Below are positions 1 to 46,435 of a DNA stretch of 46,435 bases, piece by piece. This DNA comes from a virus. A program made the translations under genes and the position numbers. Location of the stretch: IMG/VR virus record IMGVR_UViG_3300031951_000300, positions 1 to 46,435 of that record; one strand, 5' to 3'. The notes under the pieces are model-generated. The model had not been told where the DNA came from, ran no database searches, and saw nothing but the letters and a program-made list of their open reading frames with translations. The first letter of the stretch is position 1. The number at the start of each line of letters is the position of its first letter.

Positions 1-771
1 TATATGATTGTCTCTACTGCGGTGAACCACAACTGGAGGTGGATTATATACTCAGCAGAGAACCGCACCGCTGCGGTGAAGATGAAGCTCATCCAGTTTG
101 CTGCAAATATGCAGGTTAAAGAGATGAATGGATACGACCTTAAGAGGTCGTACCAATGGGTCAATGACCACTTCACAATCATTAGCAACAAGAGCATCTA
201 CTCCTACAGCGACCTGCTGGTGTTCGGAGAGAAGCTGATACGTCAGGGCGACTACGATGGCTACTTCATTGATCCGTACAACAGCCTAAAGATTCAGATG
301 TCTTCTGGCTCTTCACTCACCACCCACGACTACCACTACGAGGCTGCCTCTGAGTTCCTTTCCTTTACCCAGTCCCACAATATGGGCCTGTGGCTTTCGA
401 CCCACGCCATCACCGAAGCGCAGAGGCGTAAGGGAGAGGACGGACTACCTAAGGCTCCCTATGCTGAGGACACCGAAGGTGGCGGTAAATTTGTAAATAA
501 GTCTGATAATTTCTTAACATTCCACAGAAAAATTCAGCATCCAGAGTACGATATGAGGCGCACCGTTGAGGTCCACGTAAGAAAGATTAGGGAGGTCGAG
601 TCCGGTGGGGAACCCACAAGCCTCGACTATCCTGTTCTGTTTGAGATGAATGGGCTCAGCTCTGGCTTCGTAAATAAGTTTACCGGAAAGCCATTATTTA
701 AGTCTATACTTGCCGATGTACCACCACCAAAGATTAACTTCGAAGGTGTTGTGTATGACGATGCTTTCTAG
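1..771 (+). CDS. Replicative helicase, RecA-like C-terminal part (partial, 5' end outside window)
   Basis: The frame is open from the first base, so the N-terminus, including the Walker A loop, lies upstream of the window. The visible ~256 residues look like the RecA-fold motor of a DnaB/Twinkle/T7-gp4-type helicase. Counting from the Met at base 4, a Walker-B-like strand reads GYFIDPYNSL (about residues 86-95), followed by LWLSTHAITEAQRR (129-142). After that GGGKFVNKSDNFLTFHR has the form of the family's arginine-finger/motif-4 segment. Family knowledge: such proteins unwind the replication fork, often fused to a primase. The position at the head of a replication and nucleotide-metabolism operon fits. 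A RecA/AAA_25-type recombination ATPase is the main alternative. Bases 772-779, straight after the stop, form a -7 box for the next gene. Confidence 0.75.
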   Translation, partial: YMIVSTAVNHNWRWIIYSAENRTAAVKMKLIQFAANMQVKEMNGYDLKRSYQWVNDHFTIISNKSIYSYSDLLVFGEKLIRQGDYDGYFIDPYNSLKIQMSSGSSLTTHDYHYEAASEFLSFTQSHNMGLWLSTHAITEAQRRKGEDGLPKAPYAEDTEGGGKFVNKSDNFLTFHRKIQHPEYDMRRTVEVHVRKIREVESGGEPTSLDYPVLFEMNGLSSGFVNKFTGKPLFKSILADVPPPKINFEGVVYDDAF

Positions 772-779
772 TATCTTTG
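749..779 (+). promoter_or_regulatory. Bacteroidota-type promoter, TTG-N20-TATCTTTG
   Basis: TTG at 749-751 is followed after exactly 20 bases by TATCTTTG at 772-779. This fits the Bacteroidota sigma consensus (TTG, 17-23 bases, TAnnTTTG). The -33 element lies in the end of the helicase gene. The -7 box ends four bases before the GTG at 784, so the transcript would be leaderless or nearly so. Confidence 0.7.
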
Positions 780-783
780 ACTA

Positions 784-1314
784 GTGATAAATAATTATAA
801 TGAAATTGAGATATCAATACCAAAACCTCCGTCACTTAATCAGCTCTACGCTGGCAAGTTTTGGACATTCCGCCACAGGGAAAAAGAAAAGTATTTTAAT
901 GGCCTTTCCACTGCGCTTGAAGGACACGATAAATGGTCTACAGACCGCTTCGCTATCCACCTACGCTATAATTCTAAATTTGACGTTGACAATTCTGTTG
1001 TTGCTGTTAAGTTTCTTGCAGATTATCTACGCTATAATGGATACGTTATCGATGATACTCCTAAACATTTCTTGGAGCTTAGAATCACGTTTGATGCGGA
1101 ACTCAAAAAGGATCAATACATCGCTAAAATAATCTGTTATAACTATAATTTAATTCAAAACAATAACGATAATGACACTAGAGCAACTAAGCCGGGTGTA
1201 CTTCATAGCGACCTCGAGGATATCAGCGGGGAGCGCGGAACTGTACGAAGACCTACACGACCAAAAAGGAAGCCCGCTGCTAGACCCAAAGCAGGTAAGC
1301 GAGATAACAAATAA
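784..1314 (+). CDS. RusA-like Holliday-junction resolvase with basic C-terminal tail
   Basis: The first ~120 residues match the RusA family: an N-terminal SIPKPPSLNQLY strand (11-22), then FDVDN with acidic residues D67 and D69, K76, and a VIDDT motif with D90/D91. This is the pattern of the metal-binding aspartates of E. coli RusA. The enzyme would cleave four-way junctions or branched DNA during phage recombination or before packaging. RusA proteins are usually about 120-140 aa. Here the frame stays open to 176 aa, and the extra tail is rich in Arg, Pro and Lys. The tail overlaps the next gene by 143 bases in another frame, so it may be a by-product of that gene's composition or a real DNA-binding extension. 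The start is GTG at 784, directly behind a -7 box. Confidence 0.8.
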   Translation: MINNYNEIEISIPKPPSLNQLYAGKFWTFRHREKEKYFNGLSTALEGHDKWSTDRFAIHLRYNSKFDVDNSVVAVKFLADYLRYNGYVIDDTPKHFLELRITFDAELKKDQYIAKIICYNYNLIQNNNDNDTRATKPGVLHSDLEDISGERGTVRRPTRPKRKPAARPKAGKRDNK

Positions 1315-1390
1315 GTACTCCAGATCATTTCGTCTTGAGCTTGATATGATTCGCTCCGCACTCACGGAGTACGCAGAACAGCAGCGATGA
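1172..1390 (+). CDS. Small phage protein of unknown function, overlapping rusA-like gene
   Basis: This is a 72-aa protein starting at ATG 1172, inside the RusA-like gene in another frame, and ending with an ATGA overlap into the glycosyltransferase gene. It looks like a helical protein: LYEDL, then LLDPKQVSEITNKYSRSF, then LELDMIRSALTEYAEQ. I recall similar small phage proteins with a 'DPKQAxEIxN...xxLExxR' pattern but no known function. The sensible amino-acid composition and the coupled stop/start favour a real gene. The long overlap with the upstream frame is unusual. Confidence 0.6.
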   Translation: MTLEQLSRVYFIATSRISAGSAELYEDLHDQKGSPLLDPKQVSEITNKYSRSFRLELDMIRSALTEYAEQQR

Positions 1391-2349
1391 TAACCTTGGT
1401 GCACATCGATGGGCTTAGTGGGATTAACTACCACAGGCTCATCGTTCCACTTAGACGCCTTATTAATCAAGGCGTCAACATACATTGGATACAATCACTG
1501 AATGAGCTGAAAGACATCAATCTAGATGTTGTAACAAGCTTAATTGTGTCACGCAAGGCTTCCGTTACTAATCACAAAAAGTTCAGTCAAATGCTTAAGA
1601 GCCACGGAGTTAAGTTGATACTTGACAACGATGACTACTGGGACCTGAACAACGGAAACCCTGCAAAGGGGCTTTACGAAATCTACTACGGCCCAGACAT
1701 TAAGAAGACCATAAGGATTGCCGACGTCATATGGACGCCGTCTCACTACCTAGCCAAACAGATGAAGGCAGTAAACCCTAATGCTATTATTGAGTTTGTA
1801 AACAACTCCATAGACGACGAAGAGGACCAGTGGAAGAATATCCGTAAGTACAGCTCTAGCGATCTTCGCTTCGGTTATGCCGGAGCACTTGGTCACCTAA
1901 GCGACATAAAGGAGATGAAGTACGACTTCTCTAAGGTCTACACCTTTGGCGTGAAGGGTATGGACTACGACGAAATCCTAAAGTTCGACAAGTTGTCTGA
2001 GCCTAGAGACATCTGGAACTATGGAAAGCTCTACAAGAACTTTGATGTAAGCCTTGTTCCTCTTTCAAGGAACAGATTTAATTGGTGCAAGAGCGACCTT
2101 AAAATTGTCGAAGCGGCCTGGACTAGGACAGCGGTCATAGCGTCCAACACAAAGCCTTATAATGGCATTATACGCCACGGAGAGACTGGTCTTCTATGCT
2201 CCACGCCACAGGAGTGGCAGGAGGCTATCGAATCGATGGATAAGAAGACAGCAAAGAAGATGGCAGGCAATCTCTTTGAGGATATCAAGGACCACGAGGA
2301 CTACAACCTCGACAAGATAAACCTCAAGCGATTGAAGCACCTTGTATGA
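1387..2349 (+). CDS. GT-B fold glycosyltransferase (family 4-like)
   Basis: The 320-aa protein has a C-terminal half typical of GT-B glycosyltransferases. DVSLVPLSRNRFNWCKSDLK is followed by IVEAAWTRTAVIAS and then NGIIRHGETGLLC, the donor-nucleotide pocket with the E...G.P/TGLLV-type signature of GT4 enzymes. FGYAGALGHLSDI (about 162-174) resembles the interdomain GxxG strand. It would transfer a sugar from an NDP-sugar to an unknown acceptor. Its place is unusual: inside the replication operon between a resolvase and a nuclease, with ATGA overlaps on both sides. DNA-base glycosylation, modification of a host surface glycan, or glycosylation of a virion protein are all possible. Nothing in the sequence decides between them. 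Confidence 0.75.
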   Translation: MITLVHIDGLSGINYHRLIVPLRRLINQGVNIHWIQSLNELKDINLDVVTSLIVSRKASVTNHKKFSQMLKSHGVKLILDNDDYWDLNNGNPAKGLYEIYYGPDIKKTIRIADVIWTPSHYLAKQMKAVNPNAIIEFVNNSIDDEEDQWKNIRKYSSSDLRFGYAGALGHLSDIKEMKYDFSKVYTFGVKGMDYDEILKFDKLSEPRDIWNYGKLYKNFDVSLVPLSRNRFNWCKSDLKIVEAAWTRTAVIASNTKPYNGIIRHGETGLLCSTPQEWQEAIESMDKKTAKKMAGNLFEDIKDHEDYNLDKINLKRLKHLV

Positions 2350-2759
2350 TCAAGTACGAGAGGGAGCTCTTCAACCTCATAAAGGAGAGAATTGCCGATG
2401 ACCTCAAGGTCAGCGAGCATAAGATGTCTAAGTACGACTGCTACTCTCTTGTCCACAATTCTGACATAGAGCTCAAGTGCCGTAACCTTCACTACGATGA
2501 CCTACTCATTGAGAAGGCAAAGTACGACGCCCTTATCGAAAGGGCGGCAATGTTTGGGACGCTACCTGTCTACATCAACTCAACCCCTAATGGTGTATGG
2601 TCGTTCCGCTTGAGCGAACTCCCAGAACCTAAGTGGGAGGAGAGAAGGATGCCGAAGACTACGCATTTCACCAATAACAATATGATTGTCAAGATGGTGG
2701 GATACTACAATATTTCTTTAGGAAAAGACATCACAGAGTTGCTAGGATTGAGCAAGTAG
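2346..2759 (+). CDS. Predicted PD-(D/E)XK-type nuclease
   Basis: The 137-aa protein carries SDIELKCRN, in which D40, E42 and K44 form the D...ExK core of PD-(D/E)XK nucleases. It is followed by a helix rich in charged residues (YDDLLIEKAKYDALIER) and a strand TLPVYINSTPNGVWSF, consistent with the fold. Such small phage nucleases act in DNA recombination, host DNA breakdown or junction processing. The gene starts in an ATGA overlap with the glycosyltransferase and is followed by a promoter and a terminator hairpin, so it closes this operon. The nuclease assignment is motif-based. The substrate is unknown. Confidence 0.6.
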   Translation: MIKYERELFNLIKERIADDLKVSEHKMSKYDCYSLVHNSDIELKCRNLHYDDLLIEKAKYDALIERAAMFGTLPVYINSTPNGVWSFRLSELPEPKWEERRMPKTTHFTNNNMIVKMVGYYNISLGKDITELLGLSK

Positions 2760-2770
2760 CACTATCTTCG
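2739..2770 (+). promoter_or_regulatory. Promoter, TTG-N21-TATCTTCG, upstream of the nrd genes
   Basis: TTG at 2739-2741 and TATCTTCG at 2763-2770 are separated by 21 bases, a Bacteroidota-type promoter with one mismatch in the -7 box (TTcG for TTTG). It overlaps the end of the nuclease gene. The predicted start near 2777 lies just before a terminator-like hairpin, so the nrd mRNA would have a strong hairpin at its 5' end or be subject to attenuation. Confidence 0.5.
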
Positions 2771-2781
2771 CAATCCGTTTT

Positions 2782-2810
2782 GGGCCACCTAGTGTGGCCC
2801 TTTCTTTTCT
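2782..2810 (+). terminator. Intrinsic terminator or 5'-leader attenuator
   Basis: GGGCCAC (2782-2788) pairs perfectly with GTGGCCC (2794-2800) around a 5-base loop and is followed by TTTCTTTTCT. It ends the replication operon. Because a promoter sits just upstream, it could also act as an attenuator for nrdB. Confidence 0.75.
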
Positions 2811-2828
2811 AACCTTAACAATAATCCT

Positions 2829-3821
2829 ATGGCACTATTTGACGAACGTATCCCGTACAAACCTTTCGAATATCCGATATACTATACTGAAGGGTGGCTC
2901 AAGCAGGCTCAGGCTTTCTGGCTGCACACAGAGATATCTATGCAGAACGACGTCAAGGACTTTAGGGAGAACCTAAGCCCAAGCGAGAAGAACCTCGTGG
3001 GTAACATCCTCCTAGGCTTCGCGCAGACAGAGACAGCTGTTGCCGACTACTGGACCGGTATGGTTACCAAGTGGTTCCCTAAGCACGAAATCAAGCAGAT
3101 GGCTATGATGTTCGGCTCACAGGAGACCATCCACGCCACCGCCTACAGCTACCTCAACGAGACGCTAGGGCTTGAGGACTTTGAGGCCTTCCTTCAGGAG
3201 CCTGCAACCGTTGCTAGGTTTGAGAACCTAGTAGACACCAAGGCCGAGTACAGCCATACAATACTTAAGATAGACCCCAAGGCACGTCAGGACGTAGCCC
3301 GCTCTATAGCAGTCTTCTCTGCCTTCGCTGAGGGTATGGCCCTCTACTCCTCCTTTGCTGTTCTTTACTCCTTCCAGATGCGTAATCTACTGAAGGGAAT
3401 CGGTCAACAGATGAAGTGGTCCGTGAGGGATGAGTCCCTCCACTCCAAGATGGGCTGCATCCTATTCAACCATATGTGCGAGGAAGATTCGTATATCCGC
3501 GCAGGCGTCAAGGATAAGATTGAGGAGGCTGCTAGAGTAGCTGTTGATATGGAGCTAAACTTTATCGACAAGATGTTTGAGATGGGAGACCTCGAAAACC
3601 TAAAAGCTTCGGACCTAAAAGAGTTTATTAAAAAAAGAGGCAATGAAAAGTTGCGGGAGTTAGGCTACGATGGTATCTTTGAGTATGACGAGTCGAAGGC
3701 TTCACAGCTTGATTGGTTCTACCACTTAACTGGTGGCCACACTCATACTGACTTTTTCTCTATCCGTCCTACTGATTACTCAAAGGCCAACGAGGGAGAA
3801 GACTTTGAGAATATCTGGTAA
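2829..3821 (+). CDS. nrdB: Ribonucleotide reductase class I, small (radical) subunit
   Basis: The 330-aa length is normal for NrdB. The di-metal site is visible: E68 (AQTETAV), E99 and H102 (QETIH), E168 (FAEGM), E202 and H205 (DESLH). The spacings 31, 3, 34 and 3 equal those of E. coli D84, E115, H118, E204, E238, H241. Y106 lies four residues after H102, where the radical tyrosine (Y122) is expected. The first ligand is Glu rather than the usual Asp, as in chlamydial class Ic enzymes, yet the tyrosine is kept. The protein makes the radical used by NrdA to turn ribonucleotides into deoxyribonucleotides for phage DNA synthesis. It is followed 11 bases later by the DnaA-like gene and then nrdA. 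Confidence 0.95.
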   Translation: MALFDERIPYKPFEYPIYYTEGWLKQAQAFWLHTEISMQNDVKDFRENLSPSEKNLVGNILLGFAQTETAVADYWTGMVTKWFPKHEIKQMAMMFGSQETIHATAYSYLNETLGLEDFEAFLQEPATVARFENLVDTKAEYSHTILKIDPKARQDVARSIAVFSAFAEGMALYSSFAVLYSFQMRNLLKGIGQQMKWSVRDESLHSKMGCILFNHMCEEDSYIRAGVKDKIEEAARVAVDMELNFIDKMFEMGDLENLKASDLKEFIKKRGNEKLRELGYDGIFEYDESKASQLDWFYHLTGGHTHTDFFSIRPTDYSKANEGEDFENIW

Positions 3822-3832
3822 GAATTAAATTT

Positions 3833-4141
3833 ATGAACAACAATACAATCGCATCCATTATTTTTCACGAGATCAGAAACGAGTATGGCCTCAGCATTTC
3901 TCATATACGTAACAAGACTCGTATATCTTATGTGCGTGAGGCACGCCAGGTGTTTACTCAGCTTATGCGAGAGCACTCATCAATGACCACTACGGAGATT
4001 GGTAGGCTGGTAAACAGAGACCACTCTACGGTGGTCGCCACCACAAAGGCGGTAGGGCGTGAACTAGATACAAACAAAGTATATCGAAATCGTTATAATA
4101 AGATGAAGTTTAATATAGAATCAAAAATCAACAATGTCTAA
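3833..4141 (+). CDS. Stand-alone DnaA domain-IV-like DNA-binding protein
   Basis: The 102-aa protein matches the C-terminal DNA-binding domain of DnaA (Bac_DnaA_C) over about residues 30-75. YVREARQVFTQLMRE is followed by MTTTEIGRLVNRDHSTVVAT, with the (G)RDHSTV signature that contacts DnaA boxes. The ATPase domain is absent. It sits between nrdB and nrdA and overlaps the nrdA start by 8 bases. Known precedent: small DnaA-box-binding proteins can compete with host DnaA, and DnaA boxes control nrd genes in several bacteria. A role in phage origin recognition or nrd control is an inference. Confidence 0.8.
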   Translation: MNNNTIASIIFHEIRNEYGLSISHIRNKTRISYVREARQVFTQLMREHSSMTTTEIGRLVNRDHSTVVATTKAVGRELDTNKVYRNRYNKMKFNIESKINNV

Positions 4142-5912
4142 GAATTTTGCAGAGAGCCTAGGGTGGGAAGTCGGAGTTGACTTCCCCGAGTGGGGAAACA
4201 CAGAGGAGTACGTGAAGACCATATCGCGTGGCTACCTTATCAACGACGAAAAGCCTAAGGATGCGTACCTACGGGTCGCTAAGGCGGCGGCACACCGCCT
4301 AAATCGACCCGAGCTTGCCAGCAAGTTCTACGGCTACATATGGAACAACTGGCTTGGCCTTGCCACACCAGTGCTTGCCAATATGGGAACAGATCGTGGG
4401 CTTCCAATCTCCTGCTTCGGCGTTGACATTGGCGACAGCATCCACGACATCGGGATGAAGAACCTCGAGACTATGCTGCTGGCCAAGCACGGCGGTGGTG
4501 TAGGCATCGGACTTAATATGCTCCGTCCTGCAGGATCACCTATCTCCAACAGCAATGGGACTACCGATGGTGTGGTCCCCTTCTGTAAGATATACGACTC
4601 AACGATACTCGCCACCTCACAGGGCAATGTGCGCAGGGGTGCTGCATCGGTGAACCTAAGCATAGAGCACGGAGACTTTTGGGAGTGGATTGAAATCCGC
4701 GAGCCAAAGGGCGACGTCAACCGCCAATGTCTCAACCTAAACCAGTCGGTCATTGTCTCCGATAAGTTTATGCGGAAGCTAGAGGACGGCGATGATGAGT
4801 CACGCCGTCGCTGGTCTAAGGTGCTTCAGAAGCGCAAGGCTACAGGTCAGCCGTACATTATGTACCGCGGCAACGTCAACAAGCAGAACCCAGAGATGTA
4901 CAAGCACAACGGGCTGAAGGTCTTTATGACCAACATCTGCTCAGAGATTACCCTTTACACCGACGAGTCCCACAGCTTTGTTTGCTGTTTATCCTCACTG
5001 AACCTTGCCAAGTATGACGAGTGGAAGGACACAGACGTTGTATACTACTCCACGTTCTTTTTGGACGGCGTGTTGGAGGAGTTCATCCAGAAAGCCAAGA
5101 ATATGAGGGGCTTCGAAAATTCGGTTCGTTCTGCTGAAAAGGGACGGGCACTTGGACTGGGCGTACTCGGATGGCACACCTACCTACAGCAACGTGGAGC
5201 CCCATTTGAGGGGCTACAGGCGCAGATTGAGACGCGCCGTATCTTCTCCCACATCAAGATGGAATCAGAGCGTGCTAGCCGTGATATGGCTAAGATGTTC
5301 GGAGAACCTCTATGGTGTCGTGGCTTCGGTGTTCGTAATACCCACCTGCGTGCTATAGCTCCTACGGTGTCCAACTCTAAGCTCAGTGGTAACGTAAGCG
5401 CAGGCATCGAGCCTTGGGCAGCCAACGTATTCACCGAGCAGTCCGCTAAGGGTACGTTCATACGCAAGAACCCAACCTTAGAGAGGGTTCTGCGTAAGAT
5501 AGGCATCAACAACAAGGAGACCTGGGACCAGATACTCGCTGACGAAGGATCTGTTCAGAACATAGGTGAGCTTGATGGTTGGATTTACCAGAAGGGAAAG
5601 CTGATGCAGAGCAATGAGGCTGACCCTATGATGGATGTAGTTCCAGTAAAGGAGGTCTACAAGACCTTTAAGGAAATTAATCAGCTGGACCTAATCTACC
5701 AAGCAGGGATCCGACAGCAGTACATAGACCAGTCTGTATCGTTGAACCTTGCGTTCCCTACTGAGGCAACCCCTAAGTGGATTAATCAGGTACATATGGA
5801 GGCGTGGAACCAAGGAATCAAGACGCTGTACTATATGAGAACAGAGTCTGTGCTTCGTGGTGATATAGCCGTAAAGGCTATGAGCCCCGACTGTCTTTCC
5901 TGTGATGGCTAG
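4134..5912 (+). CDS. nrdA: Ribonucleotide reductase class I, large (catalytic) subunit
   Basis: The 592-aa protein has the catalytic residues of class I RNR: C94 (PISCF), N267-C269-E271 in TNICSEI (the thiyl-radical cysteine with its flanking Asn and Glu), C284/C285 (VCCLSS) as candidate partner of C94, the tyrosine pair in LYYMRTES near the C-terminus, and a C-terminal CLSC (587-590) that shuttles reducing power. It is shorter than E. coli NrdA (761 aa) and begins close to the catalytic barrel, so the N-terminal ATP-cone that senses dATP is missing. This is common in phage enzymes and makes them insensitive to dATP inhibition. It works with NrdB and ends 5 bases before a convergent - strand gene. 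Confidence 0.95.
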   Translation: MSKNFAESLGWEVGVDFPEWGNTEEYVKTISRGYLINDEKPKDAYLRVAKAAAHRLNRPELASKFYGYIWNNWLGLATPVLANMGTDRGLPISCFGVDIGDSIHDIGMKNLETMLLAKHGGGVGIGLNMLRPAGSPISNSNGTTDGVVPFCKIYDSTILATSQGNVRRGAASVNLSIEHGDFWEWIEIREPKGDVNRQCLNLNQSVIVSDKFMRKLEDGDDESRRRWSKVLQKRKATGQPYIMYRGNVNKQNPEMYKHNGLKVFMTNICSEITLYTDESHSFVCCLSSLNLAKYDEWKDTDVVYYSTFFLDGVLEEFIQKAKNMRGFENSVRSAEKGRALGLGVLGWHTYLQQRGAPFEGLQAQIETRRIFSHIKMESERASRDMAKMFGEPLWCRGFGVRNTHLRAIAPTVSNSKLSGNVSAGIEPWAANVFTEQSAKGTFIRKNPTLERVLRKIGINNKETWDQILADEGSVQNIGELDGWIYQKGKLMQSNEADPMMDVVPVKEVYKTFKEINQLDLIYQAGIRQQYIDQSVSLNLAFPTEATPKWINQVHMEAWNQGIKTLYYMRTESVLRGDIAVKAMSPDCLSCDG

Positions 5913-6592: not shown

Positions 6593-9500
6593 TTTTTCTC
6601 TGGTATTTCGTATCCGTATAGCACATAAGCTTCTTCAGCTGGTTTTAGTGCTCGTTTAATGTTCTTGTTGGCATCAGCAATCATCTTGTAGTTTCCTTTC
6701 TTGATGCCAATGTTTGTTATTGACTTGTACATCTTCTTGATTTCATCAAGCTCTGCAAGCCTATTGTCTCTAGATGCTCCAGTTAAGTCGCTGTACTGCT
6801 CCTTCTTTGTGCGGAACTGATCCGTGAAGTAGTAGAACTGAACTGGGATGTTGTACTCGTAGTCACGGATAACTGCACGAGAAGCAACTCGTCCAACAGC
6901 ATCAAGTGGACTGTACTTATCAGCCTCAGCCTCAAGACGTTTTTGCTCATCGCGGTACGATGATGCAATGAACGGAGGAATGATCAATGACTTTAATGTG
7001 TGACCACCATACTTGTAGCCCTTAGTTAGGGGATCGTCATAGCTGTTGGTGATATCCCTTCCGTAAAAGTCCTTGTTTTCCGCAAGATTAGTTAAGAACG
7101 AGATACCCATATTAGGCTGAAGTAGGTCAACAATATACGATGGGAAAGATAATGGGTCTGTAGTTAAATCAAAGAAGCTTCCATATGGATCTTCCATAGA
7201 GTAGTCATAGACTGTTGCAATACCTTCCTTACTAACCTTAGTAGGTATAATGCTGTGGCCCTCCATCCAGTTTGGGCGGTTATTCTTGATGTCCTCCTCG
7301 AGCTCATCATCATCTCCAAGTGCAAGAGATGCTAAGATGGAGGTTATCGCTAAACGAGCTCCAAGAATTGCAGCAGACCCAGCAAGGCGACGAGATCCAG
7401 CTTTAATGTACTCAGCCTTTTGTTCTGGAGTCAAAGTCTTATCGGTCATACCCTTCATAAGGTCCTTCCGTCCGTTGAGTATATTGGTGCCAAAACTACG
7501 AAGAGATTCAAACTCAAAAGATAGGAAGTCTCCTGCTGGAAGCTTTGCAAGTGAGGCATACCACTTTGGAAGTCTTGAGAACGTTGGCGTGTTCTGCTTC
7601 ACGAACTCAGCTGCCTCAGAGTGGACCTTATTCTTTTGAGCCTCAGTAAGTGAGTCGTATGGCTTCCCGTACATCTTCTTTGCAAATGATTGAATCTCAG
7701 AGCGGAAGATTACTAGCTTAGTGTAGTCGTCAATGGCTGCATACTTCTGACCTATTACAGAGTCAAAGTTTTTAATTAGATTTCTTGCCCTGTCAACATA
7801 GCCATTGTAGTCCTTATCGTTTCCAGTTAAAGTTCTAGAGTAGATAGCGTTTGTGAATCCCAAAAGATTGGCGTTAACGTCCTGAGCAAGCAAACCATTA
7901 TTAGCCATAATCTTGCGCAAATCTTCTGTTTCCTGGTCCGTCTCTCCTGTTGCAAATAACTCAGCACGACGCTTAATATCCCTTACGAGACTAGGGTTAA
8001 TCACTCCGTTTGCTGCCATAGTATACCAGCCACCAGTAAGGTTTTTACGCCAAGAAGGAAGGTTATATATAACCTTAGACTTACGAGCAAGTTGAAGGGT
8101 TGTTAGGTATCCACTCATCCATATATTATCGGATTCATAGATGTTCTGATTTGTTATTGCCTCGTACACATCACGGTGAACGAATCGCCCATTAAGGGGC
8201 GAGAACTTATCCTTTACCTCTTTGTATTCACCAGTTGACTTCTCAGCGTCCGTCACCTCGTTCTTGATGAACTGGGTGCCGCCAAGTGATTCGCTTATCG
8301 CGTAGAGCATATGGCCCTTGTACTTGATGTTTGACAGGGCAATAGTGGTGTCAATAAATCGAATGATTGGGTCACGCTCCTTTCCTAGCAAATTTTGAAT
8401 TGTCTCAGGCAATTCCTTGCGACGCAGGAACTGTTCGCTAGGTAGTTTTATTCCAGATGGACTTACAATTCCAAGCTTTTTAAAGTCGCTTCCATTACGA
8501 ATCTTTTCAATGTCGGCAATGTAGTCGTCGATAACTTTTGTTGCTTGAGCAAGTGTTTCATCGTGAAGAAGCTCAAAGAAATCGTCAGCCTCACTCTCGG
8601 TTAGGCCAGATAACTTTGTAAGTTGTCCAATACTCTTTGCGCGTAATATCTCATACTCATAAGCAATAGCGTCACGACGTGCAGCATTTGATGGCTTGAA
8701 GTTCTTATCCTTCCAAAAACGATAACTGCCACGCATATATTGACCAAAGTTCTTAACAATTATGTTAACGGTTTCCTCTGGCATCGCGTGAAACTCTGGG
8801 CTGTTTACGAACTCCTCGGCAAACGAATCAATGTAGTTACGCATTGCATTTGCCTGTCCAAATATCAGACTTCCATTGGGTTTAGACTCTAGTATTGTTT
8901 GATTCTCTGGAGTAAGTTTTTTATCAAAGATGTCACCCACTAGGTCAATAGTCTGAACATCTGCTTTCTTGAGTAGTTTATTCAGACTTTTTGTAAACTT
9001 TGTAATCTGAATACCTTCTTCAGCTATCTGAGAACTCATACGCTCCTTAAATACGCGAATTTGCTTCTGAGTATCGCTCCAAACAAACGTCTTGGCTGTA
9101 TTAACAGCCCGTTGCTTAAATGATAGCTGTTCCTTGTCTAGGATTTCCTCACGTACATCGCGAGAAGATGACTCTTTAATGTCAAGTTCTCCAACTGGCG
9201 CAGTCAGACTTCGACGACCAGCGGCATAGAATGATTGACTTTTCTTAACCTTACCACGAAGATCTGGGAATATTTCAGTGATGTCAATATATGAAGGAGC
9301 AAAGCCATCATTTTTACCAGCCAAGATGTATGGGTAAGATACGTGCGCATCAACTTGATTTCCGATGTACTTAAGTGTGTAAGTAATCTTGTCTGACTTC
9401 TTCTTAACTCCTTCTTTTGGTAGGTCTTTATGAACTGAATCAGTGGTATAGATTACTGGAGTTTTATCCGGGCTTACGAACTTAATCACATCACCAAGCT

Positions 9501-45432: not shown

Positions 45433-45957
45433 CTATGCAAATTTAGGGTTTTGCATCCTAAGCAAAAAATTAGCTGGCAACATAACCCACCTCTTGTATA
45501 TCGATAAATTCTTACTCTTCCTGATAGAGTCAGTAGTTCTAAGCTTTACGTGCTTGTCGTAACCCTTACTCCTTCCATTTCTGTTTACCCATTTAAGAAA
45601 TGTTGATTTACTTACACCAACAGCTAAAGAAGCTGAAATTGCAGATAGGTAAATTAGTTTTGTCTCAATGTCAACATATATGTATGACAATCCTCCGTTA
45701 CCACCACCAGAGATGTTGTAACAGTTCTCTATCCTATAAGCCGATATCCATAGGTTCTCAAGATCATTTAGCTGTTGCATTGTTTCTGCCCAGCATATCA
45801 CCTCTGTATGAAAGTTTTCCTTACCGTAGAGCTCAAATGCATCAATAAGGACCTTTCCGGACCCCTTGTATGACTTACTGAACTTAGAAGACCTATGTTG
45901 TCCTATGTATATCCAGTTGTTTAACTTGTTGGTTGTCTTGTAGATGTATCCTATCAT
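45433..45957 (-). CDS. GIY-YIG homing-type endonuclease
   Basis: The 174-aa protein starts at ATG 45957 with MIGYIYKTTNKLNNWIYIGQ, the GIY...YIG core. It continues with the family pattern SYKGSGKVLIDAFELYGKEN, FHTEVICWAETMQQLNDLEN and an Asn after GGGNGG. The C-terminus has an IENR1/NUMOD-like helix-turn-helix (ISASLAVGVSKSTFLKWVNR) that would give DNA specificity. Such free-standing mobile endonucleases spread between related phages by cutting the homologous locus. It sits beside the noncoding RNA region, so it may have invaded next to it or be linked with an intron-like element. Confidence 0.85.
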   Translation of the reverse strand: MIGYIYKTTNKLNNWIYIGQHRSSKFSKSYKGSGKVLIDAFELYGKENFHTEVICWAETMQQLNDLENLWISAYRIENCYNISGGGNGGLSYIYVDIETKLIYLSAISASLAVGVSKSTFLKWVNRNGRSKGYDKHVKLRTTDSIRKSKNLSIYKRWVMLPANFLLRMQNPKFA

Positions 45958-45981
45958 AGCGTTGTTTGTGTTGTGACAAGA

Positions 45982-45989
45982 CAAATATA
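45982..45989 (-). promoter_or_regulatory. -7 box TATATTTG for the GIY-YIG gene
   Basis: TATATTTG on the - strand, 24 bases before the ATG at 45957 and directly divergent from the promoter of the noncoding RNA. No -33 TTG seen. Confidence 0.5.
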
Positions 45990-45997
45990 CGTAATAT

Positions 45998-46028
45998 TTT
46001 GTGGTTTGGAAAATATTCCGTACCTTCG
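45998..46028 (+). promoter_or_regulatory. Promoter of the noncoding RNA, TTTG-N19-TACCTTCG
   Basis: TTTG at 45998-46001 and TACCTTCG at 46021-46028 are 19 bases apart. Only one base departs from the -7 consensus. No coding frame follows, so it should drive the structured RNA. Confidence 0.65.
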
Positions 46029-46029
46029 C

Positions 46030-46435
46030 ATAGCCTAAGGTTCTATAGCTCTATAGTAAAGCGATCTAAAAGACAATCGCTTTAGCTAACAATAGATAGG
46101 GGGCGTCGCCTAAGCAGAGCCCCCACGTTCATCAGTACCTAAAATGCTCAGGCACCTAGAATAAGCGACAACTATGGTCTGTTCGTTCTAGCCCATTATA
46201 GCTGTTGTTTACTCAGTTTACTTGTTATTTTTAAGCTACTAGTAGGAGGTATACGGGTCCTTAGGGACCCTCCACCTCCCAGACCCACAATCATTGAACA
46301 GCTATTAAGACTTCTATCGTCAATGTTTAAGTTTACCCCTCTAGCTTCTTTTTCAACCTAAGGGTTGAAGTCAGAAGCATCTGAGAGTGAGAAATAAATA
46401 TCCAGGGGATAATATACATATATAAACGTACGCAC
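46030..46435 (+). ncRNA. Candidate structured noncoding RNA (3' end may lie outside the window)
   Basis: This ~400-base stretch has no ORF of useful length on either strand. It holds: a 9-bp stem 46057-46065/46076-46084; a 6-bp GC stem 46099-46104/46119-46124; CTAGAA 46156-46161 with TTCTAG 46186-46191, interleaved with ACAAC 46168-46172 and GTTGT 46204-46208 (possible pseudoknot); a two-part hairpin GGAGGT 46245-46250/ACCTCC 46274-46279 enclosing GGGTCC 46255-46260/GGACCC 46265-46270; and another two-part hairpin GCTTCT 46344-46349/AGAAGC 46373-46378 enclosing TTCAACC 46352-46358/GGTTGAA 46363-46369. It does not match tmRNA, tRNA, RNase P or group I intron signatures known to me. Confidence 0.6.

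Follow-up and report, generated by a model that had tools for sequence, protein, structure and literature searches.

GOLLD and ROOL are large, ornate RNAs encoded by phages and prophages (PMC12286853), and the profiles used for them in that study came from Rfam. A homo-oligomeric cage is among their distinguishing features. Comparatively supported phage RNA families are few, and GOLLD and ROOL themselves are still without a function. The RNA described here resembles them in that it too is phage-encoded, structured, noncoding, of unknown function and found by comparative analysis; it differs in its length of about 280-390 nt (many GOLLD members exceed 800 nt), in having no tRNA beside it (GOLLD and ROOL are often near tRNA islands) and in matching no Rfam model. 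We read it as a new family of phage noncoding RNA, to be placed beside GOLLD and ROOL but smaller and in another genomic setting. The titles and abstracts retrieved from open-licence PMC articles contain no account of it.

The prohead RNA (pRNA) of phi29-like phages keeps its structure while its sequence diverges (PMC12670572); it binds the portal and is required for packaging. The new RNA does likewise, but it has no match in Rfam (whose library we assume to hold a pRNA model) and belongs to a phage with an ordinary large terminase and portal, in which no link to packaging is seen; nothing was found in favor of an earlier suggestion that it might be a packaging RNA. RNA II of ColE1 is the primer transcript at a plasmid replication origin. 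It is like the new RNA in being a structured transcript that runs toward an origin, here a repeat-bearing candidate, but ColE1 is a plasmid system rather than a phage, and the origin in the present case is a candidate from adjacency to the repeats.

The late/early junction and its promoter

The window, by which we mean the whole stretch of DNA analyzed, is a 46,435-base IMG/VR virus record without end repeats, from an uncultured virus whose hosts are of Flavobacteriia type. The nearest counterparts of its terminase and portal are those of MW202828, the Flavobacterium elemo phages (Elemovirus), Maribacter phage Panino and Cellulophaga phi38:1 (Callevirus), at less than 60% identity in every case; judged by sequence, the lineage is related to the Elemovirus and Callevirus phages of Flavobacteriia. 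Genes run rightward from 1 to 5,912 and leftward from about 6,179 to 45,984. Two contigs, L003 and L005, are identical to the window over the shared part and then extend further, and from them the stretch 46030-46435 is seen to be the left half of a gap of about 850 nt between leftward late and rightward early genes; past the end of the window this gap stays gene-free for about 380 nt, up to the first early ORF (starting at L003:4512). A sequence-only reading had taken 46030-46435 as a structured RNA not yet described, with a promoter of its own. The structured region stands, but its right edge is simply the end of the contig, in mid-region, and the last 48 nt or so belong to a separate element. 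Alignments of relatives show no conserved reading frame in the RNA region; a protein-coding reading was rejected, as candidate start codons differ among relatives. The features are as follows.

45998..46028, + strand: Bacteroidetes-type promoter TTTG-N19-TACCTTCG (sequence; strict pattern; equivalents in relatives)
46030..46315, + strand: main structured RNA domain (z of -2.98 folded alone; covariation in alignment A1)
46031..46045, + strand: 5' terminal hairpin of AGCC/GGTT type (read by eye in alignments)
46038..46313, + strand: tentative long-range closing helix P1, 46038-46050 with about 46299-46313 (single-sequence and consensus folds)
46057..46084, + strand: hairpin H2, TAAAGCGAT-CTAAAAGACA-ATCGCTTTA (nearly invariant in close relatives)
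46099..46124, + strand: hairpin H3, covarying stem GGGGGC...GCCCCC with loop GTCGCCTAAGCAGA (distinct versions and pair counts)
46159..46184, + strand: hairpin H4, GAATA...TGTTC with inner GAC-AACTATG-GTC (consensus fold, pair counts)
46245..46279, + strand: two-part hairpin H6, GGAGGT...ACCTCC with inner GGGTCC...GGACCC (inverted repeats, consensus fold)
46344..46378, + strand: two-part hairpin H7, GCTTCT...AGAAGC with inner TTCAACC...GGTTGAA (consensus fold, pair counts)
46388..46435, no strand assigned: first part of a distinct conserved element, with a single repeat copy of about 20 nt plus GGGGATAATATACATAT (continues past the contig)

The promoter that had been proposed ahead of the region is present, with TTTG at 45998-46001, a 19 nt spacer and TACCTTCG at 46021-46028. 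We take this pattern to be the promoter type of the host phylum, by the consensus from work on Flavobacterium and Bacteroides. Strict matches to it are very rare in the window, 45998-46028 being one among them. The loci examined, 28 in all, have an equivalent in the corresponding place; they were picked because the promoter and RNA unit is readable there. The pattern scan detected no promoter match in four loci (L025, L039, L053 and L054). In agreement with the earlier remark that no terminator closes the RNA, no intrinsic terminator was found near it, nor between it and the first early ORF. A second strict Bacteroidetes-type promoter lies at 45437-45466 on the - strand, within the 3' end of the neighboring GIY-YIG gene; it faces the endolysin gene, which may thus have a promoter of its own.

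The GIY-YIG gene itself (45433-45984, - strand, with a match to the SegE family) is flanked by the RNA promoter and the endolysin gene. Relative L010 has in this slot an HNH endonuclease of 271 aa (L010:5167-5982) and an intact RNA, so that two unrelated types of homing endonuclease use one slot by the RNA promoter in different relatives. Relatives with HNH in the slot keep the RNA, which is therefore independent of the GIY-YIG gene, and the proposal of a mobile element made up of the two was dropped. The joint inheritance of a group I intron with its GIY-YIG endonuclease is likewise lacking, and the RNA has no Rfam intron match. The slot looks like a landing place of homing genes and not a part of the RNA; in terms of free-standing homing endonucleases (SegE GIY-YIG, HNH), one adjoins the RNA as a neighbor only.

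Relatives and known families

Relatives were gathered through the neighboring endolysin protein, which gave 80 loci. The noncoding stretch is present in many of these, with identities of about 72-86% for the closer loci; more distant loci keep the same promoter type followed by a different, also structured, sequence. An exact search with 20 nt of H2 across 2.9 million viral contigs found 22 stretches, and all 22 of the contigs bearing them are also among those found through the endolysin. The loci were sorted by eye into group A (the window type) and groups B, C, D and E, and a covariance model, R1, was built from group A, the close relatives. R1 scores 98.1 bits on the window, itself a training sequence. 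In a search of 535 kb it matched, with E-values that are rough for this model, group B in L032 (34.4 bits) and in L110, L049, L026, L036 and L020 (22-24 bits), with E-values from 1e-6 to 0.003 for these six and 0.04 for L030. The group B matches lie behind the promoter, in the syntenic place and in the same direction. Groups A and B, in which R1 finds H3 and its flanks behind the promoter, make up the new family.

Outside it, neither the promoter pattern nor R1 showed the promoter and RNA unit in what was read of the cultured relatives MW202828, phi38:1, elemoE and Panino, and the RNA region has no DNA match in GenBank phages. The covariance-model check that had been proposed for the RNA gave no Rfam 15 family at the gathering threshold for the window and eleven relatives of other subgroups. 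At E-value thresholds no family fitted either, a lone sub-threshold match on L003 being due to chance. An Rfam scan of phi38:1 returned essentially tRNA matches; in the window and the relatives scanned there is no tRNA and no tmRNA.

Fold and paired changes

The inverted repeats that had drawn attention to the region are real, at 46057-46084 and 46099-46124 and in the two-part hairpins at 46245-46279 and 46344-46378. The compensatory changes that had been suggested as a check were found both in H3 and in the alignment of group A. Alignment A3 of H3 comprises eleven versions, drawn from groups A and B. Of its cells 93.9% are paired, where shuffles give 79.7 +/- 2.2, but this percentage is inflated because the H3 sequences came from a search that required pairing. 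The covariation score is 0.356, against 0.100 in shuffles and at most 0.106 in slid controls, and five pairs have two-sided changes. Those at inner pairs (G-C, U-A, A-U) are a stronger point for H3 than the percentage paired. The stem is thus rewritten by paired changes around a loop, GTCGCCTAAGCAGA, that stays nearly constant.

The whole alignment of group A has two-sided changes at 10 of 58 pairs; shuffles give 2.5 +/- 0.9 such pairs and slid controls no more than 3. The count of 10 leans partly on the partly misaligned L024, without which there are only 3 such pairs in the + strand consensus. Controls with shuffled columns likewise favor structure in groups A, C and D. As relatives keep the stems while the letters change, the fold itself appears, from these comparisons, to be under selection, and the idea of an undescribed structured RNA gains support from this covariation together with the want of an Rfam match.

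In helix P1 one pair is exchanged from U-A to C-G, in four sequences, and in L024 three of its ten pairs are broken or without letters; the 5' terminal hairpin, an alternative to part of P1, differs in its letters among relatives. A helix of 46198-46206 with 46297-46305 was set aside in preference to P1 because in L047, L023 and L009 it is either disrupted or deleted. The sequence ATAGCTGTT occurs seven times in the window (at 7039, 9123, 28559, 39942, 43692, 46198 and 46297), against 0.52 expected by chance. A recurring AACTAT hairpin was sought in the early genes and not found.

Proposed role of the RNA

We favor a dedicated phage gene for a noncoding RNA that is made early by the host and acts in trans as a stable protein-binding RNA, and give this reading a probability of about 0.5; a transcript linked to an origin is its main rival. 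The data in support of it are a host-type promoter followed by stems kept by paired changes, at the point where late and early genes diverge. Because the promoter is of the host-phylum type, host RNA polymerase probably makes the RNA; transcription would run rightward soon after DNA entry, so that the RNA would be a first transcript on the early side, and it would fold into a compact domain. Nearly invariant loops on rewritten stems suggest, from the alignments, a partner that recognizes the loops and is most simply a protein, of host or phage, which the stable RNA would bind in trans. The RNA is seen beside the repeat element only, which would equally suit a role in cis.

In readable relatives the RNA runs straight into that element, whose tandem repeat of about 20 nt reaches 4.5 copies in L012 (L012:4845-4932) and L049 (L049:5495-5585) and whose conserved noncoding core (L003:4765-4943, mostly past the end of the window) is kept more widely than the RNA. 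The element could be an origin or control region. Both its wider conservation and its repeats would suit an RNA that is transcribed toward a neighboring origin and, like RNA II of ColE1, primes that origin or opens it, with the repeats serving as initiator sites. We consider this unlikely, in view of the single repeat copy in the window (46388-46407) and the distance of about 11 kb to the primase/helicase in L135. GC skew, which has no clear switch, is uninformative on the point, as is a search without a positive control that found no relative of the Panino replication initiation protein in eight contigs.

That the RNA has the direction of the early genes, with no terminator found before the first of them, would be expected also of a long structured 5' leader that controls read-through or antitermination into the early operon. 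The RNA need not be such a leader, because the early genes have a conserved promoter-like sequence of their own directly upstream, a few hundred nt past the RNA domain; the intervening sequence is, in addition, not unusually folded in most relatives, and we regard a leader as improbable. A further alternative turns on the strand: the structure would work on the opposite one, either in late transcripts that run leftward, as their leader, or at the DNA level as hairpins. Fold statistics give no preference for the + strand: against dinucleotide shuffles the region has a folding z of -2.9 on + and -4.2 on -, the consensus fold of the - strand equals or surpasses that of the + strand, with two-sided changes at 15 pairs rather than 10, and G-U counts do not clearly prefer either strand. 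On the other side, no leftward host-type promoter reads across the structured region in the loci scanned, the structured stretch begins directly behind the rightward promoter in each subgroup, and from promoter to core in the 28 loci runs of six or more U outnumber such runs of A by 15 to 3 on the + strand. On the basis of promoter and U-tracts the + strand is likely the RNA strand, and action on the other strand appears improbable.

A fixed genomic place, a promoter that reads as host-type and many natural variants make expression, action in trans or cis, and protein partners directly testable once a member is cultured. The RNA also suggests that small early RNAs of Bacteroidetes phages are missing from current catalogues. 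In groups C, D and E, R1 finds no match behind the promoter; these sequences may be too diverged, or may be unrelated RNAs in the same slot, and a function shared across these subgroups is assumed while their sequence is not recognized by R1. It is conceivable, though doubtful, that one slot behind one host-type promoter at the late/early junction is filled in different subgroups by structured RNAs of unlike sequence. If so, this early phage RNA would be evolving fast, exchanging one sequence for another yet retaining its role in host takeover or in the start of replication. In the early region of L030 and L049, CAGGCGCACT of the group B RNA, or a near-copy, precedes an early gene behind another TAACTTCGC promoter. 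In L051, of group C, the noncoding region behind the promoter contains ACGATCTAAAAATCGT, which is like H2 of the window but stands at another position, a possible case of module exchange.
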